From Membranipora membranacea (taxonomy: Eukaryota > Bryozoa > Gymnolaemata > Cheilostomatida > Membraniporidae), in NCBI GenBank assembly GCA_914767715.1, contig OU612068.1, forward strand, positions 16,120,001 through 16,184,000: 64,000 nt of DNA, written 5' to 3'. The notes under the pieces are model-generated. The model did not search any database. It worked only from the letters and a program-made list of their open reading frames with translations, and was not told the origin of the DNA. Within the stretch, counting starts at the first letter, position 1; the number at the start of each line of letters is the position of its first letter. The position numbers and the translations under genes were made by a program. Below, piece by piece: positions 18,343 through 55,932 of this stretch.

Positions 18343-21300
18343 TTAACGCTGACCGCTATATCCTCCTCCTCCTAATCCGCCTGCATCGATGGCTCCAACA
18401 ATACGGATGGGGCCTGTAGCACCTGTTTGTCCTGGGGAGCCTCTGAGGCCGGGTAAACCATCGAAACCTGGTGCTCCTGCTTGTCCTGGTTGTCCTGCGG
18501 CTCCTGGTTGACCTGGTGCACCTTGTGCGCCTGGTTGTCCATCAAACCCATTGGATCCTGATGCTCCTGGTTGTCCAGCGGCTCCTGGTTGTCCTGGTGC
18601 TCCTTGTGCTCCTGGTTGTCCATCAAATCCTGGTGCTCCTGGTGCGCCCTGTTGTCCAACACCTGGTTGTCCTGGTTGGCCAGCTGGTCCTGGTTGTCCA
18701 GCAGCTCCTGGTTGTCCTGGTGCACCTTGTGCTCCTGGTTGTCCGTCAAATCCTGGTGCTCCTGGTGCGCCCTGTTGTCCAACACCTGGTTGTCCAGCAG
18801 CTCCTGGTTGTCCTGGTGCTCCTGGTTGTCCATCAAATCCATTTGATCCGGCAGCTCCTGGTTGTCCAGCGGCTCCTGGTTGACCTGGTGCCCCTTGTGC
18901 TCCTGGCTGTCCATCAAATCCTGGTGCTCCTGGTGCGCCCTGTTGTCCAACACCTGGTTGTCCAGCAGCTCCTGGTTGTCCAGCTGATCCTGGTTGTCCT
19001 GGTGCTCCTTGTGCTCCTGGTTGTCCATCAAATCCTGGTGCTCCTGATGATCCTGGTTGTCCAGCAGATCCAGGAGATCCTGGTTGTCCTGGTGCACCTT
19101 GTGCTCCTGGTTGTCCATCAAATCCTGGTGCTCCTGGTGCACCCTGTTGTCCTACACCTGGTGCTCCTGGTTGTCCAGCGGCTCCTGGTTGTCCAGCTGA
19201 TCCTGGTTGTCCTGGTGCACCTTGTGCTCCTGGTTGTCCATCAAATCCAGGTGCTCCTGATGATCCTGGTTGTCCAGCGGAACCTGGAGATCCTGGTTGT
19301 CCTGGTGCACCTTGTGCTCCTGGTTGTCCATCAAATCCATTTGATCCAGCAGATCCTGGTTGTCCAGCAGCTCCTGGTTGTCCTGGTGCACCTTGTGCTC
19401 CTGGCTGTCCATCAAATCCTGGTGCTCCTGGTGCGCCCTGTTGTCCAACACCTGGTTGCCCAGCAGCTCCTGGTTGTCCTGGTGCACCTTGTGCTCCTGG
19501 TTGTCCGTCGAATCCTGGTGCTCCTGGTGCGCCCTGTTGTCCAACACCTGGTGCTCCTGGTTGTCCAGCGGCTCCTGGTTGTCCAGCTGATCCTGGTTGT
19601 CCTGGTGCACCTTGTGCTCCTGGTTGTCCATCAAACCCATTTGAGCCTGCAGCTCCTGGTTGTCCGGCGGCTCCTGGTTGTCCGGCGGCTCCTGGTTGAC
19701 CAGCGGCTCCAGTTTGTCCTGGTGCTCCGGCTTGTCCATCAAATCCTGGTGCTCCTGATGATCCTGGTTGTCCAGCTGATCCTGGAGATCCTGGTTGTCC
19801 TGGTGCACCTTGTGCTCCTGGTTGTCCATCAAATCCTGGTGCTCCTTGTGCGCCCTGTTGACCAACACCTGGTGCTCCTGGTTGTCCGGCAGCTCCTGGT
19901 TGTCCAGCTGATCCTGGTTGTCCTGGTGCACCTTGTGCTCCTGGTTGTCCATCGAATCCTGGTGCTCCTGATGATCCTGGTTGTCCAGCAGATCCTGGAG
20001 ATCCTGGTTGTCCTGGTGCACCTTGTGCTCCTGGTTGTCCATCAAATCCATTTGATCCTGCTGCTCCTGGTTGTCCAGCGGCTCCTGGTTGACCAGCGGC
20101 TCCAGTTTGTCCTGGTGCTCCTGCTTGTCCATCAAATCCTGGTGATCCAGCTGATCCTGGTTGTCCTGGTGCACCTTGTGCTCCTGGTTGTCCATCGAAT
20201 CCTGGTGCTCCTGATGATCCTGGTTGTCCAGCAGATCCAGGAGATCCTGGTTGTCCTGGTGCTCCTGGTTGACCATCAAATCCTGGTGCTCCTTGTGCGC
20301 CTTGTTGACCAACACCTGGTGCTCCTGGTTGTCCAGCAGCTCCTGGTTGTCCAGCTGATCCTGGTTGTCCTGGTGCACCTTGTGCTCCTGGTTGTCCATC
20401 GAATCCTGGTGCTCCTGATGATCCTGGTTGTCCAGCAGATCCTGGTTGTCCTGGTGCACCTTGTGCTCCTGGTTGTCCATCAAATCCATTTGATCCTGCT
20501 GCTCCTGGTTGTCCAGCGGCTCCTGGTTGACCAGCGGCTCCAGTTTGTCCTGGTGCACCTGGTTGTCCATCAAATCCATTTGATCCCGCAGCTCCTGGTT
20601 GTCCTGGTGCACCTTGTGCTCCTGGTTGTCCATCAAATCCTGGTGCTCCTGCGGCTCCTTGTTGGCCAACACCTGGTGCTCCTGGTTGTCCAGCAGCTCC
20701 TGGTTGTCCTGGTGCTCCTTGTGCTCCTGGTTGTCCATCGAATCCTGGTGCTCCTGATGATCCTGGTTGTCCAGCAGATCCTGGAGATCCTGGTTGTCCT
20801 GGTGCACCTTGTGCTCCTGGTTGTCCATCGAATCCATTTGATCCGGCAGCTCCTGGTTGTCCAGCGGCTCCTGGTTGACCAGCGGCTCCAGTTTGTCCTG
20901 GTGCTCCTGCTTGTCCATCAAATCCTGGTGATCCAGCTGATCCTGGTTGTCCTGGTGCACCTTGTGCTCCTGGTTGTCCATCAAATCCATTTGATCCTGC
21001 TGCTCCTGGTTGTCCAGCGGCTCCTGGTTGACCAGCAGCTCCAGTTTGTCCTGGTGCTCCTGGTTGTCCATCGAATCCTGGTGCTCCTGGTGCTCCTTGT
21101 GCGCCCTGTTGACCAACACCTGGTGCTCCTGGTTGTCCGACTGCTCCTGGTTGTCCTGGTGCACCTTGTGCTCCTGGTTGTCCATCGAATCCTGGTGCTC
21201 CTGATGATCCTGGTTGTCCTGCAGACCCTGGAGATCCTGGTTGTCCTGGTGCACCTTGTGCTCCTGGTTGTCCATCAAATCCATTTGATCCTGCGGCTCC

Positions 21301-24300
21301 TGGTTGTCCAGCGGCTCCTGGTTGACCAGCGGCTCCGGTTTGTCCTGGTGCTCCTGCTTGTCCATCAAATCCTGGTGATCCAGCTGATCCTGGTTGTCCT
21401 GGTGCACCTTGTGCTCCTGGTTGTCCATCAAATCCATTTGATCCTGCTGCTCCTGGTTGTCCAGCGGCTCCTGGTTGACCAACGGCTCCAGTTTGTCCTG
21501 GTGCTCCTGGTTGTCCATCGAATCCTGGTGCTCCTGATGATCCTGGTTGTCCAGCAGATCCTGGAGATCCTGGTTGTCCTGGTGCACCTTGTGCTCCTGG
21601 TTGTCCATCAAATCCATTAGATCCTGCTGCTCCTGGTTGTCCAGCGGCTCCTGGTTGACCAGCGGCTCCAGTTTGTCCTGGTGCACCTGGTTGTCCATCA
21701 AATCCATTTGATCCCGCAGCTCCTGGTTGTCCTGGTGCACCTTGTGCTCCTGGCTGTCCATCAAATCCTGGTGCTCCTGCGGCTCCCTGTTGTCCAACAC
21801 CTGGTGCTCCTGGTTGTCCAGCAGCTCCTGGTTGTCCTGGTGCTCCTTGTGCTCCTGGTTGTCCATCGAATCCTGGTGCTCCTGATGATCCTGGTTGTCC
21901 AGCAGATCCTGGAGATCCTGGTTGTCCTGGTGCACCTTGTGCTCCTGGTTGTCCATCGAATCCATTTGATCCTGCAGCTCCTGGTTGTCCAGCGGCTCCT
22001 GGTTGACCAGCGGCTCCAGTTTGTCCTGGTGCTCCTGCTTGTCCATCAAATCCTGGTGATCCAGCTGATCCTGGTTGTCCTGGTGCACCTTGTGCTCCTG
22101 GTTGTCCATCAAATCCATTTGATCCTGCTGCTCCTGGTTGTCCAGCGGCTCCTGGTTGACCAGCGGCTCCTGGTTGACCAGCGGCTCCAGTTTGTCCTGG
22201 TGCTCCTGGTTGTCCATCGAATCCTGGTGCTCCTTGTGCGCCCTGTTGACCAACACCTGGGGCTCCTGGTTGCCCAACTGCTCCTGGTTGTCCTGGTGCA
22301 CCTTGTGCTCCTGGTTGTCCATCGAATCCTGGTGCTCCTGATGATCCTGGTTGTCCAGCAGATCCTGGAGATCCTGGTTGTCCTGGTGCACCTTGTGCTC
22401 CTGGTTGTCCATCAAATCCATTTGATCCTGCGGCTCCTGGTTGTCCAGCAGCTCCAGTTTGTCCTGGTGCTCCTGCTTGTCCATCAAATCCTGGTGATCC
22501 AGCTGATCCTGGTTGTCCTGGTGCACCTTGTGCTCCTGGTTGTCCATCGAATCCTGGTGCTCCTGCTGCTCCTGGTTGTCCAGCGGCTCCTGGTTGACCA
22601 GCGGCTCCAGTTTGTCCTGGTGCTCCTGGTTGCCCATCGAATCCTGGTGCTCCTGGTGCTCCTTGTGCGCCCTGTTGACCAACACCTGGTGCTCCTGGTT
22701 GTCCAGCTGCTCCTGGTTGTCCTGGTGCACCTTGTGCTCCTGGTTGTCCATCAAATCCATTTGATCCTGCTGCTCCTGGTTGTCCAGCGGCTCCTGGTTG
22801 ACCTGGTGCACCTTGTGCTCCAGGTTGTCCATCAAATCCTGGTGCTCCTGCGGCTCCTTGTTGTCCAACACCTGGTGCTCCTGGTTGTCCCGCGGCTCCA
22901 GGTTGACCAGCGGCTCCTGGTTGTCCTGGTGCACCTTGTGCTCCTGGTTGTCCATCAAATCCTGGTGCTCCTGCGGCTCCTTGTTGTCCAACACCTGGTG
23001 CTCCTGGTTGTCCAGCGGCTCCTGGTTGTCCTGGTGCCCCTTGTGCTCCTGGTTGTCCATCGGATCCTGGTGATCCTGATGATCCTGGTTGCCCAGCAGA
23101 TCCTGGAGATCCTGGTTGTCCTGGTGCACCTTGAGCTCCTGGTTGTCCATCAAATCCATTTGATCCTGCAGCTCCTGGTTGTCCAGCGGCTCCTGGTTGA
23201 CCAGCAGCTCCAGTTTGTCCTGGTGCGCCTGGTTGTCCATCAAATCCATTCGATCCTGCAGCTCCTGGTTGTCCAGCAGCTCCTGGTTGTCCTGGTGCAC
23301 CTTGTGCTCCTGGCTGGCCATCAAATCCTGGTGCTCCTGCGGCTCCTTGTTGTCCAACACCTGGTGCTCCTGGTTGTCCAGCGGCTCCTGGTTGTCCAGC
23401 GTCTCCGGGTTGTCCAGCGGCTCCTGGTTGTCCTGGTGCGCCTTGTGCTCCTGGTTGTCCATCAAATCCTGGTGCTCCTGCAGCTCCTTGTTGTCCAACA
23501 CCTGGTGCTCCTGGTTGTCCAGCGGCTCCTGGTTGTCCTGGTGCACCTTGTGCTCCTGGTTGTCCATCGAATCCTGGTGCTCCTGATGATCCTGGTTGTC
23601 CGGCAGATCCTGGAGATCCTGGTTGTCCTGGTGCACCTTGTGCTCCTGGTTGCCCATCAAATCCATTTGATCCTGCAGCTCCTGGTTGTCCAGCGGCTCC
23701 TGGTTGACCAGCAGCTCCAGTTTGTCCTGGTGCTCCTGTTTGTCCATCAAATCCTGGTGATCCAGCTGATCCTGGTTGTCCAGCGGCTCCTGGTTGTCCT
23801 GGTGCACCTTGTGCTCCTGGTTGTCCATCAAATCCATTTGATCCTGCTGCTCCTGGTTGTCCAGCGGCTCCTGGTTGACCAGCGGCTCCAGTTTGTCCTG
23901 GAGCACCTGGTTGTCCATCAAATCCATTTGAACCTGCAGCTCCTGGTTGTCCTGGTGCACCTTGTGCTCCTGGCTGTCCATCAAATCCTGGTGCTCCTGC
24001 GGCTCCTTGTTGTCCAACACCTGGTGCTCCTGGTTGTCCATCAGCTCCTGGTTGTCCTGGTGCTCCTGCTTGTCCATCGAATCCTGGTGCTCCTGATGAT
24101 CCTGGTTGTCCAGCTGATCCTGGAGATCCTGGTTGTCCAGCGGCTCCTGGTTGTCCTGGTGCACCTTGTGCTCCTGGTTGTCCATCAAATCCTGGTGCTC
24201 CTGCGGCTCCTTGTTGTCCAACACCTGGTGCTCCTGGTTGACCGGCAGCTCCGGGTTGTCCTGGTGCACCTTGTGCACCTGGTTGTCCATCAAATCCATT

Positions 24301-27300
24301 TGATCCTGCAGCTCCTGGTTGTCCAGCGGCTCCTGGTTGACCGGCGGCTCCAGTTTGTCCTGGTGCTCCTGCTTGTCCATCGAATCCTGGTGCTCCTGAT
24401 GATCCTGGTAGTCCAGCTGATCCTGGAGATCCTGGTTGTCCGGCAGCTCCTGGTTGACCTGGTGCACCTTGTGCTCCTGGTTGACCATCAAATCCTGGTG
24501 CTCCTGATGATCCTGGTTGTCCGGCAGATCCTGGTTGTCCTGGTGCACCTTGTGCTCCTGGTTGTCCATCAAATCCATTTAATCCTGCAGCTCCTGGTTG
24601 TCCAGCGGCTCCTGGTTGACCAGCAGCTCCAGTTTGTCCTGGTGCTCCTGTTTGTCCATCAAATCCTGGTGATCCAGCTGATCCTGGTTGTCCAGCGGCT
24701 CCTGGTTGTCCTGGTGCACCTTGTGCTCCTGGTTGTCCATCAAATCCTGGTGCTCCTGCGGCTCCCTGTTGTCCAACACCTGGTGCTCCTGGTTCTCCAG
24801 CAGCTCCTGGTTGTCCTGGTGCTCCTTGTGCTCCTGGTTGACCATCAAATCCTGGTGCTCCTGCGGCACCTTGTTGTCCAACACCTGGTGCTCCTGGTTG
24901 TCCAGCAGCTCCTGGTTGTCCTGGTGCACCTTGTGCTCCTGGTTGTCCATCAAATCCTGGTGCTCCTGGTGCACCCTGTTGACCAACACCTGGTTGTCCT
25001 GCAGCTCCTGGTTGTCCAGCAGCTCCTGGTTGTCCTGCTGATCCTGGGGATCCTGGTTGTCCTGGTGCACCTTGTGCTCCTGGTTGTCCATCAAATCCAT
25101 TTGATCCTGCAGCTCCTGGTTGTCCAGCGGCTCCTGGTTGTCCTGGTGCACCTTGTGCTCCTGGTTGTCCATCAAATCCTGGTGCTCCTGCAGCTCCTTG
25201 TTGTCCAACACCTGGTGCTCCTGGTTGTCCAGCAGCTCCTGGTTGTCCCGGTGCACCCTGTGCTCCAGGTTGTCCATCAAATCCTGGTGCTCCTGATGAT
25301 CCTGGTTGCCCAGCGGATCCTGGTTGTCCTGCTGATCCTGGGGATCCTGGTTGTCCTGGTGTACCTTGAGCTCCTGGTTGTCCATCAAATCCTGGTGCTC
25401 CTGCAGCTCCTTGTTGCCCAACACCTGGAGATCCTGGTTGTCCTGCAGCTCCTGGTTGTCCAGCGGCTCCTGGTTGTCCTGGTGCACCTTGTGCTCCTGG
25501 TTGTCCATCAAATCCTGGTGCTCCTGCGGCTCCTTGTTGTCCAACACCTGGTGCTCCTGGTTGTCCAGCGGCTCCTGGTTGTCCTGGTGCTCCTTGTTGT
25601 CCATCAAATCCTGGTGCTCCTGATGATCCTGGTTGTCCGGCTGATCCTGGGGATCCTGGTTGTCCTGGTGCACCCTGTGCTCCTGGTTGTCCATCGAATC
25701 CTGGTGCTCCTGATGATCCTGGTTGCCCAGCTGATCCTGGGGCGCCTGGTTGTCCTGGTGCGCCTTGTGCTCCTGGTTGTCCATCAAATCCTGGTGCTCC
25801 TGAAGCTCCTTGTTGTCCAACACCTGGTGCTCCTGGTTGTCCAGCAGCTCCTGGTTGTCCTTGTGCTCCTGGTTGTCCTGGTGCACCTTGTGCTCCTGGC
25901 TGGCCATCAAATCCTGGTGCTCCTGCGGCTCCTTGTTGTCCAACACCTGGTGCTCCTGGTTGTCCAGCGGCTCCTGGTTGTCCAGCGTCTCCAGGTTGTC
26001 CAGCAGCTCCTGGTTGTCCTGGTGCGCCTTGTGCTCCTGGTTGTCCATCAAATCCTGGTGCTCCTGCGGCTCCTTGTTGTCCAACACCTGGAGATCCTGG
26101 TTGTCCTGCAGCTCCTGGTTGTCCAGCGGCTCCTGGTTGTCCTGGTGCTCCTTGTGCTCCTGGTTGTCCATCGAATCCAGGTGCTCCTGAAGTTCCTTGT
26201 TGTCCAACGCCTGGTGCTCCTGGTTGTCCAGCAGCTCCTGGTTGTCCTGGTGCACCTTGTGCTCCTGGTTGTCCATCAAATCCTGGTGCTCCTGATGATC
26301 CTGGCTGCCCTGCAGATCCTGGTTGTCCTGCAGATCCTGGTTGTCCTGAAGATCCTGGAGATCCCGGTTGTCCTGGTGCACCTTGTGCTCCTGGTTGTCC
26401 GTCAAATCCTGGTGCTCCTGCAGCTCCTTGTTGTCCAACACCTGGTGCTCCTGGTTGTCCAGCAGCTCCTGGCTGTCCTGGTGCTCCTTGTGCTCCCGGT
26501 TGCCCATCAAATCCGGGTGATCCTGCGGATCCTGGTTGTCCAGCGGCTCCTGGTTGTCCTGGTGCACCTTGTGCTCCTGGTTGTCCATCAAATCCTGGTG
26601 CTCCTGAAGCTCCTTGTTGTCCAACACCTGGTGCTCCTGGTGTTCCAGCAGCTCCTGGTTGTCCTGGTGCACCTTGTGCTCCTGGTTGTCCATCAAATCC
26701 TGGTGCTCCTGATGATCCTGGTTGCCCTGCAGATCCTGGTTGTCCTGCAGATCCTGGTTGTCCTGCAGATCCTGGAGATCCTGGTTGTCCTGGTGCACCT
26801 TGTGCTCCTGGTTGTCCATCGAATCCTGGTGCTCCTGGTGCGCCTTGTTGTCCAACACCTGGTGCTCCTGGTTGTCCAGCAGCTCCTGGTTGTCCTGGGG
26901 CTCCTTGTGCTCCTGGCTGGCCATCAAATCCTGCTGATCCTGGTTGTCCTGCAGCTCCTTGAGATCCAGGTTGTCCTGCGGCTCCTGGTTGTCCAACACC
27001 TGGTGCTCCTGGTTGCCCATCAGCTCCTGGTTGTCCTGGTGCACCTTGTGCTCCTGGTTGTCCATCAAATCCTGGTGCTCCTGATGATCCTGGCTGCCCT
27101 GCAGATCCGGGAGATCCTGGTGCTCCTTGTGCTCCTGGTTGTCCATCAAATCCTGGTGCTCCTGGTGCACCCTGTTGTCCAACTCCTGGTGCTCCTGGTT
27201 GCCCATCAGCTCCTGGTTGTCCCTGTGCTCCTGGTTGTCCATCAAATCCTGGTGCTCCTGGTGCACCTTGTTGTCCAACACCTGGTTGTCCTGGTTGTCC

Positions 27301-27842
27301 ATCAGCTCCTGGTTGTCCTGGTGCTCCTTGAGCTCCTGGTTGTCCATCGAATCCGGGTGCTCCTGGAGAGCCTGGTTGTCCTGGTGAGCCAGATGAGCCC
27401 TGTGCTCCTGGTTGACCATCAGATCCTGGTGATCCTTGTTGTCCAACACCTGGTGCTCCATCGATACCTGGTGGTCCTGGCACTCCTGGTTGTCCTGAGG
27501 GTCCTTGTGGTCCTGGCTGTCCATCAAAACCTGGTGATCCTGGATTTCCTGGTTCTCCTGGGAATCCTTGTGGACCTGCTGGTCCAGCATTACCTGGTTG
27601 TCCTGGTGTTCCTGGGACTCCATCGTTACCATGGTTACCATCTGTTCCAGGTTGTCCATCGAAACCTGGAGCTCCAACGCCATGAACACCTGTTGCTCCT
27701 GTGGCTCCAATAAATCCACCTCTTCCTGGTGGACCGGCTGGGCCTGTGGCTCCTGGTCGACCAGCGTCACCTCTGTCTCCCTTAAGACCTCTGAGACCTG
27801 GGATTCCTGGAATTCCTTGTGGTCCAGCGGGGCAGTTACAAC
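18343..27842 (-). CDS. Collagen gene 1, exon 4: entire triple helix in one 9.5-kb exon
   Basis: Uninterrupted coding exon of 9,500 bases (two bases plus 3,165 codons and the stop). The acceptor GAAG/GT at 27843 puts the exon in phase 1, completing a Gly codon before CNCPAG. The open frame continues upstream to 27936, but that part is intron: its apparent Met start lacks a signal and a membrane anchor. Confidence 0.9.
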
Positions 27843-28891
27843 CTTCAAAAAGATCAGAATTTAGTTTTAAGGTCTCAATAGTACAGAACACAATATGAAA
27901 ACAATCCAGCATGATGCCCCTAAGGCTGAGGAACAAGTTACCTCTGTTTCAAATCTTGTTAACAGCGAAAAAATAGAGAGAGCCCATCACCTGATATCCT
28001 CTCACATCACACAGGATCGCAGCGTTCCCTGATTCTCAATCATCGCAACAAATTAATCTAGTCATGAAACATATCATTGATACACTGACTCACAAACTTC
28101 AAAAGTCTGTAAAGATTGAGACATGATCAACAGAGTAGTTTGCTTTGTTGTTAGTCTTGGCAGTGGATTACTTCAGTCAAAATTAAGTAAGATTGAGTAT
28201 GCAGGAACCATCTTTGGTTCTCTTGTGAATCAGTGTATATTTCCAGTAAAGGCATACACATTTATTTATGGGAGTTTCATTGTATAATATAATTATTGAT
28301 ATCCTAGTGCACTCACCTCCGTAATTTGGACCAACACCAGCTCCAGCTGGGAGACCATAGTTTACATTATTAGCCTGTCTTCTCTGTCTGGTAGCTTGTG
28401 GTGTCTCTAATACTGTTACTCGGGATTTCAGATCAATATTCTCAGTCTATAATGTGGAAAGTTAGACATAGAAATGTTTATATCTCATTGATTAATGACC
28501 TAATTTTTTTGTGTTCTTAGGATTAACCATGACAGCTACCTCTACCTATTCTTGACTCTCACTCTATGAGCTCCTGCAAATGATTCTTCAAATATTTGCA
28601 GAATCATTTGCAGGTTTTATGTTACAATGCAGCTGCCACAATAAAATCAAAATTTAGGTTTATTATCTGCAAAGAAATTCTTCAGTCTTATCAAGACATT
28701 CATACCTGAAGGCTGTTGATCCTTGATGTTTGGTTGTCAATTTTGTTCATCAGATGAACACCGAAGATAACTCCAGCGGTTGTGATTGTGATCATGAGAC
28801 CAGTGATAGCAATAACTCCTAGTCCTGAGACTGCTTGAGTTCTTCGCTCCTCCTTGTGAGTAAAACCGGCATACTCCAAATCCCCCTTCAT
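18343..28891 (-). CDS. Giant membrane-anchored fibre-type collagen, gene 1 (3,271 aa)
   Basis: Structural matrix protein. Coding exons 28706-28891, 28317-28446 and 18343-27842 join in frame (phases 0 and 1). Residues 1-20 are a basic cytosolic tail ([15 protein letters not shown]). Residues 21-47 form one hydrophobic helix ([20 protein letters not shown]). Then come an NQT sequon, a heptad-like stretch and a furin-type RQRR at residues 82-85. After a Cys-x-Cys (CNCPAG) follow about 3,100 residues of Gly-X-Y. The start of the helix holds [13 protein letters not shown], including an RGD. The body repeats [16 protein letters not shown] variants with Gly-Val-Gly interruptions. The tail is GPIRIV followed by a Gly-rich GGGGYSGQR. 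There is no fibrillar C-propeptide or C-terminal Cys. The type II membrane layout with a convertase site resembles nematode cuticle collagens, but those are about ten times smaller. The ATG at 28891 was chosen because it is conserved with gene 2. Likely cuticle or extracellular-sheath collagen; exact tissue unknown. Confidence 0.92.
28317..28446 (-). CDS. Collagen gene 1, exon 3: linker with RQRR cleavage site
   Basis: Encodes [14 protein letters not shown], which continues a heptad pattern from the end of exon 2. Then come [10 protein letters not shown] with a consensus proprotein-convertase site and a Gly/Pro-rich hinge ending NYG. Acceptor TATAG, donor GTGAGT; phase 0 in, 1 out. Confidence 0.85.
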
Positions 28892-28899
28892 ATTATATT
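28706..28899 (-). CDS. Collagen gene 1, exon 2: start codon and transmembrane anchor
   Basis: Acceptor TTTTCAG at 28900, eight bases of 5' UTR, then ATG at 28889-28891. The 62 codons include the membrane helix and [12 protein letters not shown], ending at CAG/GTATGA. 46 of its first 52 residues are identical or similar to gene 2. Confidence 0.88.
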
Positions 28900-29250
28900 C
28901 TGAAAATGAAACAAATTTCAGAATAAGTATTTGCGATATTGGAGGAAATAGAGAACTGTCAAGCTGCTGGAAACAACAAATGTACAATGTATAAAAGCGT
29001 AAAATGTAAGCATCCAACATAAGAAAACAAAACACAATTTCCATCACTAACAGAAGTTTCAGCATTATTAAAAAATAAGAACTGTAGGTTCATGATCAAA
29101 TTTCTTTCAGAAAGTATAGCAGGAGTTGTTTCATTTTGCTTGATTTTGAATTCTCAATCTATCTTCATGTGTATATAAATAATCAAAGCTTTTAAATTGA
29201 AAATATAAAACGAGACTGTGATAGCTGGTTAGAGAATGTAGTTTACTCAC

Positions 29251-29298
29251 CTGTGGTGTACTAGTAGTAGTGCACCTGTGAACCAAATGTGGGATTCT
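29251..29298 (-). other. Collagen gene 1, non-coding first exon (predicted)
   Basis: Lies between the TATA box at 29323-29330 and a strong CACAG/GTGAGTAAAC donor at 29251. The transcription start is placed about 30 bases downstream of the TATA box and is approximate. Confidence 0.6.
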
Positions 29299-29322
29299 GA
29301 TTTCTCTTCTGCTCCCTCTCTC

Positions 29323-29330
29323 TTTTTATA
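29323..29330 (-). promoter_or_regulatory. TATA box of collagen gene 1
   Basis: GGGTATAAAAAG on the minus strand, preceded by a GC-richer GGAGAGG element. It is correctly placed for a start near 29298 and followed by the non-coding exon. Confidence 0.7.
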
Positions 29331-32320: not shown

Positions 32321-32438
32321 TAAGACCAAATTTGATCAAATTTTCCCGCATTCCAATCGTTCCCATTACATTGGTGTGTCTCCGGCGGCGGCTCAAAATT
32401 CTAAATGCAAGTAAATTGGATATTGCTAGATCTAGCCA
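32321..32438. mobile_element. MITE-like element, copy 2 (diverged)
   Basis: The right end TAAATTGGATATTGCTAGAT and the left end ATTTGATCAAATTTTCCCGC match the inverted ends of the family in degenerate form. Confidence 0.45.
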
Positions 32439-33771
32439 TGCTATTTTATTGCTTTACTGAAGAGGAAAAAATCGCTCGGGAAAGATATAATGGTGTATGG
32501 TAGTATAGCAATTACATGAACCTGTATCATTATGTAACATTATACTAAAACTATGGGCTCTTAAAAGTAAATGAATATATGAACAGATTCAGAACAACGA
32601 CTTTAGAGAAATAAACAGATCCGTTTGCCTAAATTTGAGATCCCCTTCCAGGCAAGCCGCGACCCGCCCCTTCCCAGAGCCTCGTCCCACCTCAATTACC
32701 GATGACTCAGCGTGATCAACATTTCATTACTTGAATTCCACATAAATTTGGGTATGGTGTTTGTCCAAATACTATTCAACCTGTTTGAACTGAACCGTTA
32801 TTTCTATTGGTTTTATTTTTTGCCTAATCATGGGGAGCCAGATGTCAAGAGTAAATATAAAGGAATGAAGATGGCATAACAAATTCCAAAGGACGTAATG
32901 TAAAACTTACATGTGTATCTATTGAATTTCCATTGAGGTACCTGATTCTTTGCATCTGGCATTTTTAAATGCAGATAATTCCTTTATCATTACTCGGTTT
33001 TCCTGTATTGACAATCTTAATTTTGAATGTGTGGCAAAAACGCTCTCATTTGTTCTGAGAAAAATAAAAGAACAGTGGGTAGATATTGAGCAACCCTGCT
33101 GCAGAAAATTCAACTCTGCATTCCATCAAGAATGTTCGGAACTTCTCAAATTAGACGCGAGAGAGATGGAGCGAATTAATGCAAGACTCATGTTGCCAAC
33201 ATAGTGATACCATGGAGTGAGCTAGCCCCTTGAAACATATATATGTTTGGGCATGTGCATAATTGGTCAGGGGAGTATTCACCAGGGATGACCCAGCAGC
33301 AGCATATATTGTAGGACTAGCTAATCTCAGTGTTCAACACCAAACCAGGTGGTGTTAGTGGCTGGATACCTTTTATCCTAAAGATAAAGCAGATTTATAT
33401 TAATGTTACCATCGGAGAGGGAGTTCATTGACTAGCCACTTTTTTATGGAGCCCTGTGATGCACCGTGTTTTCTCTTATCATCTGCTCCCACCTCTCATC
33501 TTTACTCCTACTCCATTCACTTTTACTCCTAATCCTATACATCAAAAGGTTCCAGTACCAGTAGTTACGGAAATCAATCTGTAAGCTCAATTGCATAACT
33601 GAGTACATGCACAGTTTTTGCTTGTAACACAGACCACATCCTAGCAACCAGTATTATTTGAAAATTGATGAACCGATAACCACCATCCTTAATAACCACT
33701 CTTTGCTAATAAACTTGTAAGCTAATAAACTTCTTTTTCCTGTTTTAATTTTTCAATCATCACCATACTGG

Positions 33772-34884: not shown

Positions 34885-34945
34885 GGTACCACCCTGTGGC
34901 TATCGGTACCACCCTGTGGCATACAGGTACCATCCTGTGGGTAAT
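34885..34945. repeat. Three copies of a 20-base unit GGTACCACCCTGTGG
   Basis: The units start at 34885, 34905 and 34926. They encode a repeated Tyr-His-Pro in one frame, but no supported gene is present. Confidence 0.85.
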
Positions 34946-37515: not shown

Positions 37516-37517
37516 TT

Positions 37518-39637: not shown

Positions 39638-39643
39638 TTTATT
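39638..39643 (-). promoter_or_regulatory. Candidate polyadenylation signal of collagen gene 2
   Basis: AATAAA on the minus strand 345 bases after the stop codon, matching the spacing seen in gene 1. Confidence 0.4.
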
Positions 39644-45900: not shown

Positions 45901-48900
45901 ACCATCAAATCCTGGTGAGCCGGCTGAACCTGGTTGTCCAGCAGCGCCTGTCTGTCCTGGTGCACCTTGTGCTCCTGGTTGTCCATCAAATCCATTTGAT
46001 CCTGCAGCTCCAGGTTGTCCAGCAGCTCCTGGTTGTCCAGCGGCTCCTGGTTGTCCTGGTGCACCTTGTGCTCCTGGTTGTCCATCAAATCCTGGTGCTC
46101 CTGCAGCTCCTTGTTGTCCAACACCTGGTGCTCCTGGTTGTCCAACAGCTCCCGGTTGTCCTGGTGCTCCTTGTGCGCCTGGTTGACCATCAAAACCCGG
46201 TGACCCAGCTGATCCTGGTTGACCAGCAGCTCCTGTCTGTCCTTGTGCTCCTGGTTGTCCATCGAATCCTGGTGATCCTGGAGTACCTGGTTGTCCTGCT
46301 GATCCTTGTTGTCCTGCTGATCCTGGTTGACCTGGTGCACCTTGTGCTCCTGGTTGTCCATCAAATCCATTTGATCCTGCAGCTCCTGGTTGTCCAGCAG
46401 CTCCTGTCTGTCCTGGTGCTCCTTGTGCTCCTGGTTGTCCATCGAATCCTGGTGATCCTGGAGTACCTGGTTGTCCTGCTGACCCTGGTTGTCCTGGTGC
46501 ACCTTGTGCTCCTGGTTGTCCATCAAATCCTGGTGCTCCTGCAGCTCCTTGTTGTCCAACACCTGGTGCTCCTGGTTGTCCAGCAGCTCCTGGTTGTCCT
46601 GGTGCACCTTGTGCTCCTGGTTGACCATCAAATCCATTTGATCCTGCAGCTCCTGGTTGTCCGGCGGCTCCTGGTTGTCCTGGTGCACCTTGTGCTCCTG
46701 GTTGTCCATCAAATCCTGGTGCTCCTGGTTGTCCAACACCTGGTGCTCCATCATTACCTGGTTGTCCTGCGGATCCTGGCTGTCCTGCTGACCCTGGTTG
46801 TCCTGGTGCACCTTGTGCTCCTGGTTGACCATCAAATCCTGGTGATCCTGGTGTTCCTGGTTGTCCTGCTGATCCTGGTTGTCCTGGTGCACCTTGTGCG
46901 CCTGGTTGACCATCAAATCCTGGTGCTCCTGGTTGTCCAACACCTGGTGCTCCATCATTACCTGGTTGCCCTGCTGATCCTGGTTGTCCTGCTGATCCTG
47001 GTTGTCCTGCTGATCCTGGTTGTCCTGGAGCACCTTGTGCGCCTGGTTGTCCATCAAATCCTGGTGACCCAGCTGATCCTGGTTGTCCGGCGGCTCCTGG
47101 TTGTCCTGGGGAACCTTGTGCTCCTGGTTGTCCATCAGATCCTGGTGCTCCTGCAGCTCCTTGTTGTCCAACACCTGGTGCTCCTGGTTGTCCAGCAGCT
47201 CCTGGTTGTCCTGGTGCTCCTTGTGCACCTGGTTGTCCATCAAATCCTGGTGCTCCTGGTTGTCCAACACCTGGTGCTCCATCATTACCTGGTAGTCCTG
47301 CTGATCCTGGTTGTCCTGGTTGTCCTGGTGCGCCTTGTGCTCCTGGTTGACCATCAAATCCATTAGATCCTGCAGCTCCTGGTTGTCCGGCGGCTCCTGG
47401 TTGTCCTGGTGCACCTTGTGCTCCTGGTTGTCCATCAAATCCTGGTGCTCCTGGTTGTCCAACACCTGGTGCTCCATCATTACCTGGCTGTCCTGCGGAT
47501 CCTGGCTGTCCTGCTGATCCTGGTTGTCCTGGTGCACCTTGTGCACCTGGTTGACCATCAAATCCTGGGGCTCCTGGTTGTCCAACACCTGGTGCTCCAT
47601 CATTACCTGGTTGACCTGCTGAACCTGGTTGTCCTGCAGCTCCTGGTTGTCCTGGAGCACCTTGTGCTCCTGGTTGTCCATCAAATCCTGGTGCTCCTGC
47701 GGCTCCTTGTTGTCCAACACCTGGTGCTCCTGGTTGTCCAGCAGCTCCTGGTTGTCCTGGTGCACCTTGTGCTCCTGGTTGACCATCGAATCCTGGTGAT
47801 CCTGGTGTTCCTGGTTGTCCGGCTGATCCTGATTGTCCTGGTGCACCCTGTGCGCCTGGTTGACCATCAAATCCTGGTGCTCCTGGTTGTCCAACACCTG
47901 GTGCTCCATCATTACCTGGTTGACCTGCTGAACCTGGTTGTCCTGCTGCTCCTGGTTGTCCTGGAGCACCTTGTGCGCCTGGTTGACCATCAAATCCAGG
48001 TGATCCTGCGGATCCTGGTTGTCCAGCAGCCCCTGTCTGTCCTGGTGCACCTTGTGCTCCTGGTTGTCCATCAAATCCATTTGATCCTGCAGCTCCTGGT
48101 TGTCCAGCGGCTCCTGGTTGTCCTGGTGCACCTTGTGCTCCTGGTTGTCCATCAAATCCTGGTGCTCCTGGTTGTCCAACACCTGGTGCTCCATCATTAC
48201 CTGGTTGTCCTGCGGATCCTGGCTGTCCTGCTGATCCAGGTTGTCCTGGTGCTCCTTGTGCTCCTGGTTGTCCATCAAATCCTGGAGAACCTGGTTGTCC
48301 TGCTGATCCTGTTTGTCCTGCTGACCCTGGTTGTCCTGGTGCACCTTGTGCGCCTGGTTGACCATCAAATCCTGGTGAGCCAGCTGATCCTGGTTGCCCA
48401 GCAGCTCCTGTTTGTCCTGGTGATCCTTGTGCTCCTGGTTGTCCGTCGAATCCTGGTGATCCTGCAGCTCCTGGTTGTCCGGCGGCTCCTGGTTGTCCTG
48501 GGGCACCTTGTGCGCCTGGTTGACCATCAAATCCTGGTGCTCCTGGTTGTCCAACACCTGGTGCTCCATCATTACCTGGTTGTCCTGCTGATCCTGGTTG
48601 CCCTGCTGATCCTGGTTGTCCTGCTGATCCTGGTTGTCCTGCCGATCCTGGTTGTCCTGGTGCACCTTGTGCGCCTGGTTGTCCATCAAATCCTGGTGAT
48701 CCAGCTGATCCTGGTTGTCCAGCAGCTCCTGCCTGTCCTGGTGCTCCTTGTGCTCCTGGTTGTCCATCGAATCCTGGTGATCCAGGAGAACCTGGTTGTC
48801 CCGCTGATCCTGTTTGTCCTGGTGCACCTTGTGCGCCTGGTTGGCCATCAAATCCTGGTGCTCCTGGTTGTCCAACACCTGGTGTTCCATCATTACCTGG

Positions 48901-51900
48901 CTGTCCTGCGGATCCTGGCTGTCCTGCTGAACCTGGTTGTCCTGGTGCCCCTTGTGCTCCTGGTTGACCATCGAAACCTGGTGATCCTGGTGTTCCTGGT
49001 TGTCCTGCTGATCCTGGTTGTCCTGGTGCACCTTGTGCACCTGGTTGACCATCAAATCCTGGTGCTCCTGGTTGTCCAACACCTGGTGCTCCATCATTAC
49101 CTGGTTGCCCTGCTGATCCTGGTTGTCCTGCTGATCCTGGTTGTCCTGCTGATCCTGGTTGTCCTGGAGCACCTTGTGCGCCTGGTTGTCCATCAAATCC
49201 TGGTGACCCAGCTGATCCTGGTTGTCCAGCGGCTCCTGGTTGTCCTGGGGCACCTTGTGCTCCTGGTTGTCCATCAAATCCTGGTGCTCCTGCAGCTCCT
49301 TGTTGTCCAACACCTGGTGCTCCTGGTTGTCCAGCAGCTCCTGGTTGTCCTGGTGCTCCTTGTGCACCTGGTTGGCCATCAAATCCTGGTGCTCCTGGTT
49401 GTCCAACACCTGGTGCTCCATCGTTACCTGGTTGTCCTGCTGATCCTGGTTGTCCTGCTGATCCTGGTTGTCCTGGTGCACCTTGTGCTCCTGGCTGTCC
49501 ATCAAATCCTGGTGATCCAGCTGATCCTGGTTGTCCAGCAGCGCCTGTCTGTCCTGGTGCTCCTTGTCCTCCTGGTTGTCCATCGAATCCTGGTGATCCT
49601 GGAGAACCTGGTTGTCCTGCTGATCCTGGTTGTCCTGGTGCACCTTGTGCTCCTGGTTGTCCATCAAATCCTGGTGCTCCTGCGGCACCTTGTTGTCCAA
49701 CACCTGGTGCTCCTGGTTGTCCAGCGGCTCCTGGTTGTCCTGGTGCACCTTGTGCTCCTGGTTGTCCATCGAATCCTGGTGCTCCTGGTTGTCCAACACC
49801 TGGTGCTCCATCATTACCTGGCTGTCCTGCTGATCCTGGCTGTCCTGCTGATCCTGGTTGTCCTGGTGCACCTTGTGCTCCTGGTTGACCATCGAATCCT
49901 GGTGATCCTGGTGTTCCTGGTTGTCCTGCTGATCCTGGTTGTCCTGGTGCACCTTGTGCACCTGGTTGACCATCAAATCCTGGTGCTCCTGGTTGTCCAA
50001 CACCTGGTGCTCCATCATTACCTGGTTGACCTGCTGAGCCTGGTTGTCCTGCGGCTCCTGGTTGTCCTGGAGCACCTTGTGCTCCTGGTTGTCCATCAGA
50101 TCCTGGTGCTCCTGCGGCTCCTTGTTGTCCAACACCTGGTGCTCCTGGCTGTCCAGCAGCTCCTGGTTGTCCTGGTGCACCTTGTGCTCCTGGTTGACCA
50201 TCGAATCCTGGTGATCCCGGTGTTCCTGGTTGTCCTGCTGATCCTGGCTGTCCTGGTGCACCTTGTGCGCCTGGTTGACCATCAAATCCTGGTGCTCCTG
50301 GTTGTCCAACACCTGGTGCTCCATCATTACCTGGTTGACCTGCTGAACCTGGTTGTCCTCCGGCTCCTGGTTGTCCTGGAGCACCTTGTGCTCCTGGTTG
50401 ACCATCAAATCCGGGTGATCCTGCGGATCCTGGTTGTCCAGCAGCTCCTGTCTGTCCTGGTGCACCTTGTGCTCCTGGTTGTCCATCAAATCCATTTGAT
50501 CCTGCAGCTCCTGGTTGTCCAGCGGCTCCTGGTTGTCCTGGTGCACCTTGTGCTCCTGGTTGTCCATCAAATCCTGGCGCTCCTGGTTGTCCAACACCTG
50601 GTGCTCCATCATTACCTGGTTGCCCTGCGGATCCTGGCTGTCCTGCTGATCCCGGTTGTCCTGGTGCTCCTTGTGCTCCTGGTTGTCCATCAAATCCTGG
50701 AGAACCTGGTTGTCCTGCTGATCCTGTTTGTCCTGCTGACCCTGGTTGTCCTGGTGCACCTTGTGCGCCTGGTTGACCATCAAATCCTGGTGAGCCAGCT
50801 GATCCTGGTTGTCCAGCAGCTCCTGTTTGTCCTGGTGATCCTTGTGCTCCTGGTTGTCCGTCGAATCCTGGTGATCCTGCAGCTCCTGGTTGTCCAGCGG
50901 CTCCTGGTTGTCCTGGGGCACCTTGTGCGCCTGGTTGACCATCAAATCCTGGTGCTCCTGGTTGTCCAACACCTGGTGCTCCATCATTACCTGGTTGTCC
51001 TGCTGATCCTGGCTGTCCTGCTGATCCTGGTTGTCCTGCTGATCCTGGCTGTCCTGCTGATCCTGGTTGTCCTGGTGCACCTTGTGCACCTGGTTGTCCA
51101 TCAAATCCTGGTGATCCAGCTGATCCTGGTTGTCCAGCAGCTCCTGTCTGTCCTGGTGCTCCTTGTGCTCCTGGTTGTCCATCGAATCCTGGTGATCCAG
51201 GAGAACCTGGTTGTCCCGCTGATCCTGGCTGTCCTGGTGCACCTTGTGCGCCTGGTTGGCCATCAAATCCTGGTGCTCCTGGTTGCCCAACTCCTGGTGT
51301 TCCGTCGTTACCTCGCTCTCCAGGTGCTCCTGGTTGTCCAGCTGATCCTGGTTGTCCTGGTGCACCTTGTGCGCCCGGTTGACCATCAAATCCTGGTGCT
51401 CCTGGTTGTCCAACACCTGGTGCCCCATCGTTACCTGGTTGTCCTGCTGATCCTGGTTGTCCTGCTGATCCTGGTTGCCCTGGTGCACCTTGTGCGCCTG
51501 GTTGTCCATCAAACCCTGGTGACCCAGCTGATCCTGGTTGTCCAGCAGCTCCTGTCTGTCCTGGTGCTCCTTGTGCTCCTGGTTGTCCATCGAATCCTGG
51601 TGCTCCTGGAGAACCTTGTTGTCCTGCTGATCCTGGAGATCCTGGTTGTCCTGGTGCACCTTGTGCGCCTGGTTGACCATCAAATCCTGGTGCTCCTGGT
51701 TGTCCAACACCTGGTGCTCCATCGTTACCTGGTTGTCCTGCTGATCCTGGTTGTCCTGCTGATCCTGGTTGTCCTGGTGCACCTTGTGCGCCTGGTTGTC
51801 CATCAAATCCTGGTGACCCAGCTGAACCTGGTTGTCCAGCGGCTCCTGGTTGTCCTGGGGCTCCTTGTGCTCCTGGTTGTCCATCAAATCCTGGAGCTCC

Positions 51901-54185
51901 TGCGGCTCCTTGTTGACCAACACCTGGTGCTCCTGGTTGTCCAGCAGCTCCTGGTTGTCCAGCAGCTCCTGGTTGTCCTGATGCTCCTTGTGCACCTGGT
52001 TGACCATCAAATCCTGGTGCTCCTGGTTGTCCAACACCTGGCGCTCCATCGTTACCTGGTTGTCCTGCTGATCCTGGTTGTCCTGCTGATCCTGGTTGTC
52101 CAGGTGCACCTTGTGCTCCTGGTTGACCATCGAATCCTGGTGACCCAGCTGATCCTGGTTGTCCTGCGGCCCCTGGTTGTCCTGCGGCTCCTGGTTGTCC
52201 TGGTGAACCTTGTGCGCCTGGTTGACCATCAAATCCTGGTGCTCCTGGTTGTCCAACACCTGGTGCTCCATCGTTACCTGGTTGTCCTGCTGATCCTGGT
52301 TGTCCTGGGGCGCCTTGTGCGCCTGGTTGGCCATCAAATCCTGGTGCTCCTGGTTGTCCAACACCTGGTGTTCCGTCATTACCTCGCTGTCCTGGTGCTC
52401 CTGGTTGTCCTGCTGATCCTGGTTGTCCAGCAGCTCCTGTTTGTCCTGGTGCACCTTGTGCTCCTGGTTGTCCGTCAAATCCATTTGATCCTGCAGCTCC
52501 TGGTTGTCCAGCGGCTCCAGGTTGTCCTGGTACACCTTGTGCTCCTGGTTGTCCATCAAATCCTGGTGCTCCTGGTTGTCCAACACCTGGTGCTCCATCG
52601 TTACCTGGTTGCCCAGCAGATCCTGGTTGTCCTGGTGCACCTTGGGCTCCTGGTTGTCCATCAAATCCTGGTGAACCTGGAGAACCTGGTTGACCTGCTG
52701 ATCCTGGTTGTCCTGCTGATCCTGGTTGTCCAGCGGCTCCTGATTGTCCTGGTGCACCTTGTGCTCCTGGTTGTCCATCAAATCCTGGTGCTCCTGGTTG
52801 TCCAACACCTGGTGCTCCATCGTTTCCTGGTTGCCCAGCAGATCCTGGTTGTCCTGCTGATCCTGGTTGTCCCGGAGCACCTTGTGCTCCTGGTTGTCCA
52901 TCAAATCCTGGTGATCCTGGAGAACCTGGTTGGCCAGCAGCTCCTTGTTGTCCAACACCTGGCGCTCCGTCGTTACCTGGTTGTCCTGCAGCTCCTGGTT
53001 GTCCCGGTGCACCCTGGGCTCCTGGTTGTCCATCAAAACCTGGTGATCCTGGTTGTCCTGCTGACCCTGGCTGTCCTGCTGATCCTGGTTGTCCTGGTGA
53101 ACCTTGTGCTCCTGGTTGACCATCAAATCCTGGTGATCCAGCAGAACCTGGTTGTCCAGCAGCTCCTGTCTGTCCTGGTGTTCCTTGTGCTCCTGGTTGA
53201 CCATCAAATCCTGGTACTCCTGGTTGTCCAACACCTGGTACTCCGTCATTTCCTGGTTGTCCAGGTGATCCTGGTTGTCCTGCTGATCCTGGTTGTCCTG
53301 GTGCACCTTGTGCGCCTGGTTGACCATCAAATCCTGGTGACCCGGCTGATCCTGGTTGTCCAGCAGCTCCCGGTTGTCCTGGTGCACCTTGTGCTCCTGG
53401 TTGACCATCAAATCCTGGTACTCCTGGTTGTCCAACACCTGGTACTCCGTCATTTCCTGGCTGTCCTGCTGATCCTGGTTGTCCTGGCTCACCTTGTGCG
53501 CCTGGTTGACCATCAAATCCTGGTACTCCTGGTTGTCCAACACCTGGTACTCCGTCATTTCCTGGCTGTCCAGGTGATCCCGGTTGTCCTGCTGAACCTG
53601 GTTGTCCTGGTGCACCTTGTGCTCCTGGTTGGCCATCAAATCCTGGTACTCCTGGTTGTCCAACACCTGGTACTCCGTCATTACCTGGTTGTCCTGGAGA
53701 TCCTGGTTGTCCTGGTGCTCCTTGTGCGCCTGGTTGTCCATCAAATCCTGGGGATCCAGCTGATCCTGGTTGACCAGCAGCTCCTGTCTGACCTGGTGAT
53801 CCTTGTGCTCCTGGTTGTCCATCAAATCCTGGTGATCCTGGAGAGCCTGGCTGTCCTGCTGATCCTGGTTGTCCTGCAGATCCTGGTTGTCCTGGCTGAC
53901 CATCAAAACCTGATGTTCCTGGTTGACCTGGTTGTCCTTGAGCACCTGTTTGTCCAGGTAATCCATCGAATCCTGGTGAACCTGGTTGGCCTGTTGCTCC
54001 TTGTGGACCAGTGTCACCTGGTCGTGAGAAGCCAGTTGATCCTGTTGATCCACGTTGGCCAGTTGACCCAACCCTTCCTTGTGCCCCAGCGTATCCTGGG
54101 TTGCCTGGTCTTCCAGCTATACCTTGGTCTCCCTTCTGTCCTCTCTGTCCAGGTGCTCCTGGGGGTCCGGCTGGGCAGGAACATG
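39988..54185 (-). CDS. Collagen gene 2, exon 4: entire triple helix in one 14.2-kb exon
   Basis: 14,198 bases without an intron or a stop: two bases plus 4,731 codons and the stop. The acceptor TTTGCAG at 54186 completes an Ala codon before CSCPAG. The Met at 54204 lies in the intron and is not the true start. The exon contains nested tandem segmental duplications (offsets 846, 2,241, 2,139 and 2,415 bases, all multiples of three). Confidence 0.92.
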
Positions 54186-55581
54186 CTGCAAATATCAGAG
54201 ACAAATTTTCATGAGAAAGCCAATTAAAATAAGAACATCTTCACAAATCATTGACAATAATCATTATGGGTATTTTTAAGTGTCATATTGATAATTCCAA
54301 CAGGTACCCTCCATAATGATAGTAATCTAAGTGATCTCCTGTTCATTTAGTCGTTCATTAAGGATTATATATCTTCTTACAAACAGCATCACTTGGAAAT
54401 AAGCTCAGCCAATGCTAAAATTTACAGAGTGGACAGTTATTTTTCAATTAATTCACGGCCTTTCAGGGTATTTAGGGCTGAAATCAAGGCTGATCAGACA
54501 TTCGCTGTTTCCTTTTTTAAACTACACGGAACTGCTGCTGTTATGGTATAGAAGATAAGCTACATAATCAAATGTCTTTGAAATTTAGTTGGACATGTTT
54601 ATACAGGAGAATGAAGGGTCATTTGTTCCTCGTAGGATACAACAGAAATAAAGGAACTCAGTGATACTTTCTACTTTTCCCTACTTCCAGTGGGTAAAGG
54701 CTCAACTGCTCAGTTACTGGGAGCATCGTCATTGGCACAAGGTTTGTGTGCTAAATTTGATTCAATTTAATTCTTGGGCTTTTATAAGCAAATTGGATTG
54801 CTATATTTTAGCAGTATCAAATATAAAAAACTAATAAAATTTCTCATATTCTAACCTCCTGCGGCTGCGGTGCCGTAGCCGACCTCCTCGGCGGCTCCGT
54901 ATTCGTTTCCGTATTCTGTGCTTCTTCTCTTCCTGTTCAGTACTGTGTAAGCAGCGCTTGTGCTCTTCTTTAATTCTGTGATCTCTGTGTCAAATCTTGC
55001 ATTCTCTGTGTCAAATCTTGCATTCTCTGTTTCCATTTTCAAATTTATTCTGGCATTTTCAGCCTGGAGAGAAAAGGAAAATTCCAAAAATATATGAGAT
55101 ATTATAATAATATATTATATTTGTACATTTTACAATCTCAATTTGTCACTTGATACATATATACATATATACATATATACATATATACATATATACATAT
55201 ATACATATATACATATTTACATATATACATATATACATATATACATATATATGCCACACAGTGTAAATCAGCAAGATTATTTCTTTGAATACAACAAAAT
55301 GAGGAAAGGTGTTTGAGGATAAAGTTTTTTCTGGTTTACATACTTCTGGATTACAGAATCTTTTGCAACTGGTTATAGTTATTCAGAATAAAAATCTTTA
55401 CGTTGCTCATTCATACCTGAAGACTGTCGATCTTATTCATCAGATGAACACCGAAGATGGTTCCAGCGACGGTGACGGTGATGAAAAGACCAGTGAGAGC
55501 AATAACTCCTAGTCCTGAGACTGCTGGAGTTCTGCGCTCCTCTTTGTGGGTAAAGTCAGCATACTCTAAATCCCCCTTCAT
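39988..55581 (-). CDS. Giant membrane-anchored fibre-type collagen, gene 2 (4,856 aa)
   Basis: Paralogue of gene 1, head-to-tail upstream of it. Exons 55417-55581, 54856-55063 and 39988-54185 join in phases 0 and 1. Residues 1-20 are a basic cytosolic tail ([15 protein letters not shown]), and 21-47 a single membrane helix ([20 protein letters not shown]). Residues 56-87 form a heptad array with ENARFDT units. A furin-type RKRR lies at 99-102, followed by a Gly/Ala/Tyr hinge and CSCPAG. About 4,700 residues of Gly-X-Y follow. The N-terminal part of the helix has [16 protein letters not shown] and other Arg-containing triplets. The body repeats [16 protein letters not shown] with [15 protein letters not shown] interruption blocks. 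The C-terminus is ATGPIRIV then [11 protein letters not shown], shared in layout with gene 1. No C-propeptide. At about 0.286 nm per residue the helix would be near 1.3 micrometres, among the longest collagens. Likely a secreted cuticle-type fibre after cleavage. Confidence 0.92.
41449..46201 (-). repeat. Higher-order segmental duplications inside collagen gene 2 (offsets 846 and 2,241)
   Basis: Segments at 41449-41800 and 42295-42650 match at offset 846, for example the variant CCTGTCTGTCC at 41666 and 42512. Segments at 42295-43960 and 44536-46201 match at offset 2,241, including the private variant GATTGTCC at 42791 and 45032. These are frame-neutral expansions of the helix. Confidence 0.8.
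46966..51250 (-). repeat. Higher-order segmental duplications inside collagen gene 2 (offsets 2,139 and 2,415)
   Basis: Matched anchors include GGTTGCCCTGCTGATCC at 46964/49103 (offset 2,139) and TTGACCTGCTGA at 47611/50026 (offset 2,415). CCTGGAGAACCTGG at 48281/50696 also gives 2,415. Both offsets are multiples of three. They imply two separate unequal exchange events overlapping in this stretch. Confidence 0.75.
54856..55063 (-). CDS. Collagen gene 2, exon 3: heptad coil and RKRR site
   Basis: Acceptor TCTCCAG, donor GGAG/GTTAGA, 69 codons plus one base. The heptad unit ENARFDT occurs twice in tandem (21-base DNA repeat at about 54988-55029), preceded and followed by similar heptads. Then come [10 protein letters not shown] and a GYGTAAAG hinge. 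Suggests an N-terminal trimerisation coil removed by cleavage. Confidence 0.85.
55153..55252. repeat. Microsatellite (ATATATACAT)n, about ten units
   Basis: Ten-base unit ATACATATAT repeated with a single interruption (ATATTTACAT), in intron 2 of collagen gene 2. Confidence 0.95.
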
Positions 55582-55586
55582 CTTCC
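55417..55586 (-). CDS. Collagen gene 2, exon 2: start codon and transmembrane anchor
   Basis: Acceptor TTTTGCAG at 55587, GGAAG then ATG at 55579-55581. 55 codons end at CTTCAG/GTATGA. Compared with gene 1 it lacks seven residues (NQTSRIN) before the final SLQ. Confidence 0.88.
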
Positions 55587-55793: not shown

Positions 55794-55902
55794 CTTTTGT
55801 TGAGGTAAGAATCTCTTGTAGGTATAGAGATATTTAAGTTTAAGAAGGAGAAGTAAGATGCCTGAAACTGAAACCCTCTGAGCTGAGAGAAACTGAATCT
55901 GA
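55794..55902 (-). other. Collagen gene 2, non-coding first exon (predicted)
   Basis: Lies downstream of the TATA box at 55925-55932. The donor candidate is CAAAAG/GTTTGTG at 55794. The sequence has no ATG in good context before that donor. The exact start and donor are not certain. Confidence 0.45.
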
Positions 55903-55924
55903 TTTCTCAAGCAGAACCTGGCAG

Positions 55925-55932
55925 TATTTATA
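55925..55932 (-). promoter_or_regulatory. TATA box of collagen gene 2
   Basis: GGTATAAATACTG on the minus strand, about 345 bases upstream of the start-codon exon. Both collagen genes have a TATA box and a short untranslated first exon, as expected for strongly and developmentally expressed matrix genes. Confidence 0.7.

Follow-up and report, generated by a model that had tools for sequence, protein, structure and literature searches.

The 64,000-nt stretch of DNA analysed here (the window) contains two tandem genes for very long collagens, both on the minus strand, with gene B lying upstream of gene A in the sense of transcription (Table 1). The initial annotation had placed two adjacent giant-collagen genes here, and this is borne out both by the open frames and by the spliced models, which give chains of 3,271 (A) and 4,856 (B) residues with no internal stop in either. 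Each gene is modelled with three coding exons and a likely non-coding exon 1, from a reading of the flanks. The order of parts along the chain is the same in A and B: a short neutral tail, a membrane helix, heptads, RxRR, a Tyr-bearing linker, CxC-PAG, the Gly-X-Y helix and a 20-residue tail. Long plus-strand open frames opposite the helix exons are taken to be mirror images of the stop-free repeats.

Table 1. Features of the two collagen genes (positions in the window).
Gene	Feature	Positions	Strand	Remarks
A	Gene extent	18343 to ~29330	-	
A	CCAATCAGAT element	29371..29380	-	Longest word common to the 120 nt upstream of both TATA boxes
A	TATA box	29324..29330	-	
A	Presumed non-coding exon 1	29251..29303	-	AAATCAGA initiator-like site to donor AG/GTGAGT; borders inferred
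A	Exon 2	28706..28899 (coding 28706-28891)	-	Tail and membrane helix (helix ~28757-28822)
A	Exon 3	28317..28446	-	Heptad stretch, RQRR (28378-28389), Tyr-bearing linker
A	Exon 4	18343..27842	-	CNC (27832-27840), Gly-X-Y (18406-27825), tail (18346-18405), stop
A	Open frame	18343-27948	-	3,201 codons
A	AATAAA signal	17985..17990	-	353 nt from end of coding region
B	Gene extent	39988 to ~55932	-	
B	CCAATCAGAT element	55965..55974	-	Word in common with gene A
B	TATA box	55926..55932	-	
B	Presumed non-coding exon 1	55794..55905	-	AAATCAGA site to possible donor AAG/GTTTGT, uncertain
B	Exon 2	55417..55586 (coding 55417-55581)	-	Tail and membrane helix (~55447-55512)
B	Exon 3	54856..55063	-	Longer heptad stretch with TENARFD repeats, RKRR (54923-54934), Tyr-bearing linker
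B	Exon 4	39988..54185	-	CSC (54175-54183), Gly-X-Y (40051-54168), tail (39991-40050), stop
B	Open frame	39988-54240	-	4,750 codons
B	AATAAA signal	39638..39643	-	345 nt from end of coding region

Tandem paralogues under coding constraint

A and B are tandem paralogues, and both are real, well-formed genes under coding constraint. Their GT-AG borders preserve the reading frame, and the intron phases between coding exons are 0 and then 1 in both. In exon 2, 142 of 165 aligned coding bases are identical (0.861; shuffled maximum 0.732), and over 53 codons the first, second and third positions differ 5, 5 and 15 times (third position 15 of 25); the two introns, aligned over their full length, do no better than shuffles and have short local matches of 17 and 9 nt. 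Identity in exon 3 (0.714) is above the shuffled mean and below the shuffled maximum of 0.732, and the encoded proteins have no significant similarity (tblastn E 2.0); what pairs the two copies of this exon is their phase, their position and the order of their motifs, their sequence similarity falling short of significance. The opening 150 nt of the helix exon (0.695) are barely over their shuffled maximum (0.685), the last 90 coding nt (0.679) are above the shuffled mean and under a maximum of 0.685, and the 3' UTRs are not above the shuffled mean. CxCPAG and GPIRIV ends are common to both genes.

The flanks are also similarly arranged. CCAATCAGAT, TATA box and AAATCAGA follow in the same order, with 27 nt from TATA to AAATCAGA in both genes and a CCAAT-to-TATA distance of 50 nt in A and 42 nt in B. 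Downstream of the TATA box is an 11-nt identical run, in register, that was matched by none of 20,000 shuffles; the 10-mer common to both genes upstream of it is of a length reached by 7 of 400 shuffles. An AATAAA signal lies about 350 nt past the coding region in each.

Constraint on the helix is seen in its internal repeats. When 120-nt windows were picked by nucleotide identity alone, all of those at least 90% identical were in frame (684/684 in A, 1,622/1,622 in B), and their differences were mostly synonymous, with a pN/pS of 0.31 (A) and 0.21 (B); these pairs overlap and are not independent. A separate count on repeat copies chosen by motif, giving 98% (A) and 87% (B) third-position differences, was discarded as circular because the motif itself fixes most other positions.

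Anatomy of the predicted chains

Of the N-terminal features in the initial annotation, the membrane segment, the RxRR site and the Cys-x-Cys pair are all recovered, while the supposedly basic tail proves to be neutral, with four Lys and Arg against four (A) or five (B) Asp and Glu. Since the cytosolic tail is not basic, the orientation in the membrane is read from the furin site and the position of the helix and not from charge. Both chains open with a common N-terminal sequence. The KD19 hydrophobic maximum is 2.1 in both chains, starting at residue 24, and in each the hydrophobic segment, about 20 residues long, follows a polar N-region of 23 residues. The proposed heptad stretch is moderately supported in A, where its score was reached by 8 of 5000 shuffles, and gives a modest signal in B (71 of 5000), where the stretch is longer owing to its TENARFD repeats; the score is home-made and was applied to stretches picked by eye. 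A predicted furin site follows (RQRR in A, RKRR in B), then a linker with Tyr at residues 92 and 104 (A) or 106, 110 and 118 (B), and then the Cys pair, CNC at 107/109 in A and CSC at 126/128 in B, with no other Cys in the mature chains. A search of solved structures with the N-terminus gave nothing credible, the best E being 0.86. A pattern was matched by 68 stretches in scans of prokaryote genomes and by 8 in viral contigs, with no relative among them, as expected for an animal gene.

The helices are almost pure Gly-X-Y over 3,140 (A) and 4,706 (B) residues, matching the 3,100-4,700 first estimated, and at 0.286 nm per residue the predicted rods are 0.898 and 1.346 µm long, in agreement with the earlier figures of about 0.9 and 1.35 µm. 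There are 1,022 triplets and 37 breaks in A, and 1,527 triplets and 61 breaks in B. Nearly every break (97 of 98 over both genes) is a single-residue Gly-V/I-Gly, in which, for Gly-Val, these two residues stand in for a triplet: all 37 in A and 59 in B are Gly-Val, and the others in B are one Gly-Ile and one longer break near the start. Spacing is uneven (32-227 residues for A, 32-197 for B), with a mean of about one break per 80 residues.

Pro occupies X in 10 of 1,022 triplets in A (1.0%) and 5 of 1,527 in B (0.3%), and Y in 530 (52%) and 825 (54%). Asp numbers 107 and 182, against 6 and 9 Lys plus Arg; the computed pI of 4.05 for all four sequences is the floor of the program, and the helices are for this reason described just as “very acidic.” Each mature chain has one Lys. 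Tyr is absent from helix A and occurs once in helix B, all others flanking the helix; Trp is found in neither chain, Met is absent from the mature chains and Thr makes up about 1%. The C-terminal tail of 20 residues consists of RIV and a Gly-rich end with one Tyr. That a C-terminal propeptide is missing, as first proposed, agrees with a Pfam scan of the last 119 residues of each chain at E <= 0.1, in which Collagen (PF01391) was the single family and no C-terminal propeptide domain appeared; in the terminal parts scanned, no domain other than collagen repeats was above the cut-off. The commonest Phe-Phe spacings (30, 27 and 35 residues in A; 27, 68 and 41 in B) and spectral peaks near 34-35 and 29 are taken as properties of the repeat unit, and no fibril period is claimed from them.

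The helix exons also contain near-identical internal duplications. In B these fall at six lags of 846-3,087 bp, with the best 600-nt windows 97.8-99.5% identical and stretches of more than 88% identity spanning about 1.0-1.9 kb; in A the best 600-nt windows are 99.2% identical at a lag of 1,128 bp and 88.7% at 447 bp. On average, repeats resemble others of their own gene (best matches 0.94 and 0.96) more than those of the other gene (0.89 and 0.87), and 6 and 3 of 60 repeat windows each are nearer to the other gene. Such duplications make the chain lengths provisional: individuals may differ in copy number, or the assembly may have it wrong.

Relation to known collagens

No match to Col_cuticle_N (PF01484) was found in a Pfam scan of both N-termini at E <= 1, which listed other families and in which the HMMER filters discard most matches above about 0.1. 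The likeness to nematode cuticle collagens put forward in the initial annotation is nevertheless right in kind, extending to the anchor, the RxxR and the Cys beside the helix. Like A and B, those of the C. elegans SQT-3 type have an N-terminal hydrophobic segment and then RxxR, cleavage in A and B being predicted. Excerpts of two accounts (PMC11304992, PMC10538796) describe about two thirds of nematode cuticle collagens as having a type II membrane segment, with a nearby RxxR that a PCSK cleaves, and the helix as interrupted; some members carry N-terminal coiled coils, folding is suggested to run from N to C and Cys lie beside the helix; and Tyr cross-links take the place of those by Lys. The main Gly-X-Y block, however, has 37-43 repeats in nematodes (PMC11304992, in excerpt), against 1,022 and 1,527 triplets here, and nematode Cys residues usually form three clusters (same source), with short Gly-X-Y blocks between them, against one pair and one helix in A and B. 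With no match to the N-domain and another layout of Cys and helix, the predicted chains fall outside the nematode cuticle collagens strictly defined. They appear to follow a nematode-like design scaled up more than tenfold, with a helix more than twentyfold longer than the nematode main block.

The membrane-associated MACITs (collagens XIII, XXIII and XXV, and COL-99) have, according to an excerpt of PMC4678570, a type II anchor, a coiled-coil NC1, a juxtamembrane furin site and an interrupted helix, and A and B may resemble them, having a hydrophobic segment, RxRR, moderately supported heptads and helix breaks, with a topology that is predicted. The MACIT C-terminus is described in the same excerpt as highly conserved with a Trp motif, whereas A and B have no Trp; also unlike MACITs, they encode nearly the whole helix in a single exon, and their breaks are almost without exception one residue long. 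As judged by the lack of a Trp-bearing C-terminus, these putative proteins are not MACITs. With fibrillar collagens such as type I they have in common a long Gly-X-Y rod, here 3.1 (A) and 4.6 (B) times the 1,014-residue ceiling proposed for the fibrillar design (PMC4450265, in excerpt), but they lack the C-propeptide domain, have almost no Lys and contain recurrent Gly-X-Gly breaks. As predicted proteins without a propeptide, they are not fibrillar collagens either.

Among annelid cuticle collagens, several are about 2.4 µm long, and that of Riftia about 1.5 µm. Excerpts of the relevant sources describe annelid cuticle collagens as very long helices with globular domains (PMC11766948) and the Riftia cuticle as made mainly of long collagen fibres (PMC8789280). 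Giant annelid chains are predicted in Alvinella (8,859 aa), with similar ones in Paralvinella and Eisenia, and are discussed under cuticle and tube; like A and B, they have thousands of Gly-X-Y triplets per chain (PMC12403961, in part). They were compared here by tabulated composition. In Table 1 of that source (n = 8 annelid collagens; partial text), Pro fills 0.09-0.40 of X and 0.22-0.36 of Y positions, and A and B lie outside both ranges, the pattern counted there differing somewhat from ours; for X alone the giants have 0.33-0.40 and shorter siboglinid chains 0.09-0.21, against 0.003-0.01 in A and B. This placement of Pro argues against simple identity with the annelid giants, of which A and B need not be relatives. 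The Riftia cuticle collagen is reported to be rich in glycosylated Thr (excerpt of PMC11766948), against about 1% Thr here, and this counts against the cuticle reading of A and B.

In searches of open-licence papers we found no giant type II membrane collagen, and micrometre-long cuticle collagens appear there as proteins or bare length predictions, with no gene whose N-terminal anatomy is given. Set apart from the nematode, MACIT and fibrillar families by these feature tests, A and B could plausibly represent a distinct collagen class, as first proposed.

A possible route from membrane to coat

The layout of A and B fits what is described of biosynthesis in MACITs and in the cuticle collagens of C. 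elegans, and from this we infer the same topology, trimerisation, folding direction, cleavage, cross-linking and tissue role for these chains. The account we favour, and think somewhat probable, is that the two paralogues encode giant collagens of an apical extracellular coat, made as membrane-tethered precursors, released by furin and linked at their ends; the coat would most likely be the body-wall cuticle, otherwise a tube. Chains would be inserted into the ER membrane in type II orientation and gathered in threes by the membrane helix and heptad stretch, and the CxC pair at the border of the helix would lock the trimer by disulphides. The triple helix would then zip from N to C over about 0.9 or 1.35 µm, and a furin/PCSK-type protease would cut at RxRR, freeing the rod, on which a short N-terminal linker with two or three Tyr would stay. 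Single-residue Gly-Val-Gly breaks would supply flexibility. Rods would join end-wise via disulphide and Tyr links, not via lysyl-oxidase links along the rod: end linking is the likelier because Lys is near absent while Cys and nearly all Tyr are at the ends.

Three other explanations need weighing against this coat-collagen account. The hydrophobic segment might instead be a long signal peptide cleaved in the ER, which would make A and B ordinary secreted giant collagens with RxRR as a conventional propeptide site. Such an arrangement has precedent, as 56 of 173 C. elegans cuticle collagens have predicted signal sequences and 45 of these 56 also have RxxR (PMC10538796, in excerpt), and the charge across the segment is nearly balanced; the 23-residue polar N-region before it in both paralogues, though, better suits an anchor, and we consider a signal peptide unlikely. 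A little less unlikely, to our minds, is a difference of destination, in which glands secrete the product as a fibre (tube, egg case or thread) and it is not body-wall cuticle, with furin release in secretory granules. The very repetitive, highly acidic, low-complexity helix may be in the style of secreted fibres, while the N-terminal logic is that of nematode cuticle collagens; chain size alone does not separate the two.

It could also be supposed that the membrane exons are parts of different, short genes, leaving the helix exon as a gene of its own or a functionless expanded repeat. The helix frames are indeed open upstream of the acceptor, with an in-frame ATG there in gene A, and the two copies of exon 3 share no significant similarity. 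Yet the open stretch of gene B contains no ATG, the splice phases agree in both paralogues, the low pN/pS (0.21-0.31) goes with a complete absence of out-of-frame repeat pairs, and the CxCPAG and GPIRIV ends recur in both genes, making this division of the models highly improbable.

Returning to the coat-collagen account, it may be ventured more tentatively that A and B belong to a family, so far undescribed, of giant collagens with a type II membrane anchor, forming the micrometre rods of a non-nematode cuticle: seeded by coiled coils tethered to the membrane and folded from N to C, cut by furin, joined at the ends by Cys and Tyr in place of lysyl-oxidase chemistry, and with recurrent single-residue breaks. 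If true, the nematode route to cuticle collagen would be general to cuticles and able to make rods longer than 1 µm. How does a chain longer than 4,700 residues find its partners, fold, leave the cell and become cross-linked? These questions become testable with a complete gene model that runs from promoter to termini and includes anchor, seed and cleavage site, and such a model also supplies defined peptides and exons as search targets.

Some further features of the window may be recorded. Searches for tRNA genes and Rfam families (gathering threshold) over the window were empty. Neighbours were identified from 10 open frames hand-picked from a longer list (eight neighbours and two covering collagen exons) and from Pfam scans (E <= 0.01) of the three minus-strand frames of 56001-64000, 28900-37700 and 7000-16500; those listed below are no more than suggestive of an animal genome. 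The collagen coding sequences (18343-27842 and 39988-54185) have a strong codon bias toward GGA, CCA and CAA. An 8-bp microsatellite, ATACATAT, present in 12.4 copies at 55153-55251, lies in the intron separating exons 2 and 3 of gene B, and a reverse transcriptase fragment (RVT_1) of a retroelement lies between the two collagen genes at 38421-38972 on the minus strand. Also on the minus strand are an adjoining pair of TPMT-like (thiopurine S-methyltransferase) open frames at 2523-3260 and 5519-6292, the comparison with solved structures covering 2523-3260, and an FHA exon at 12779-13015 that, together with a NIBRIN_BRCT_II match at about 9312-9386 (minus strand; under the curated cut-off, 23.1 against 27.2 bits), probably represents parts of a nibrin gene.
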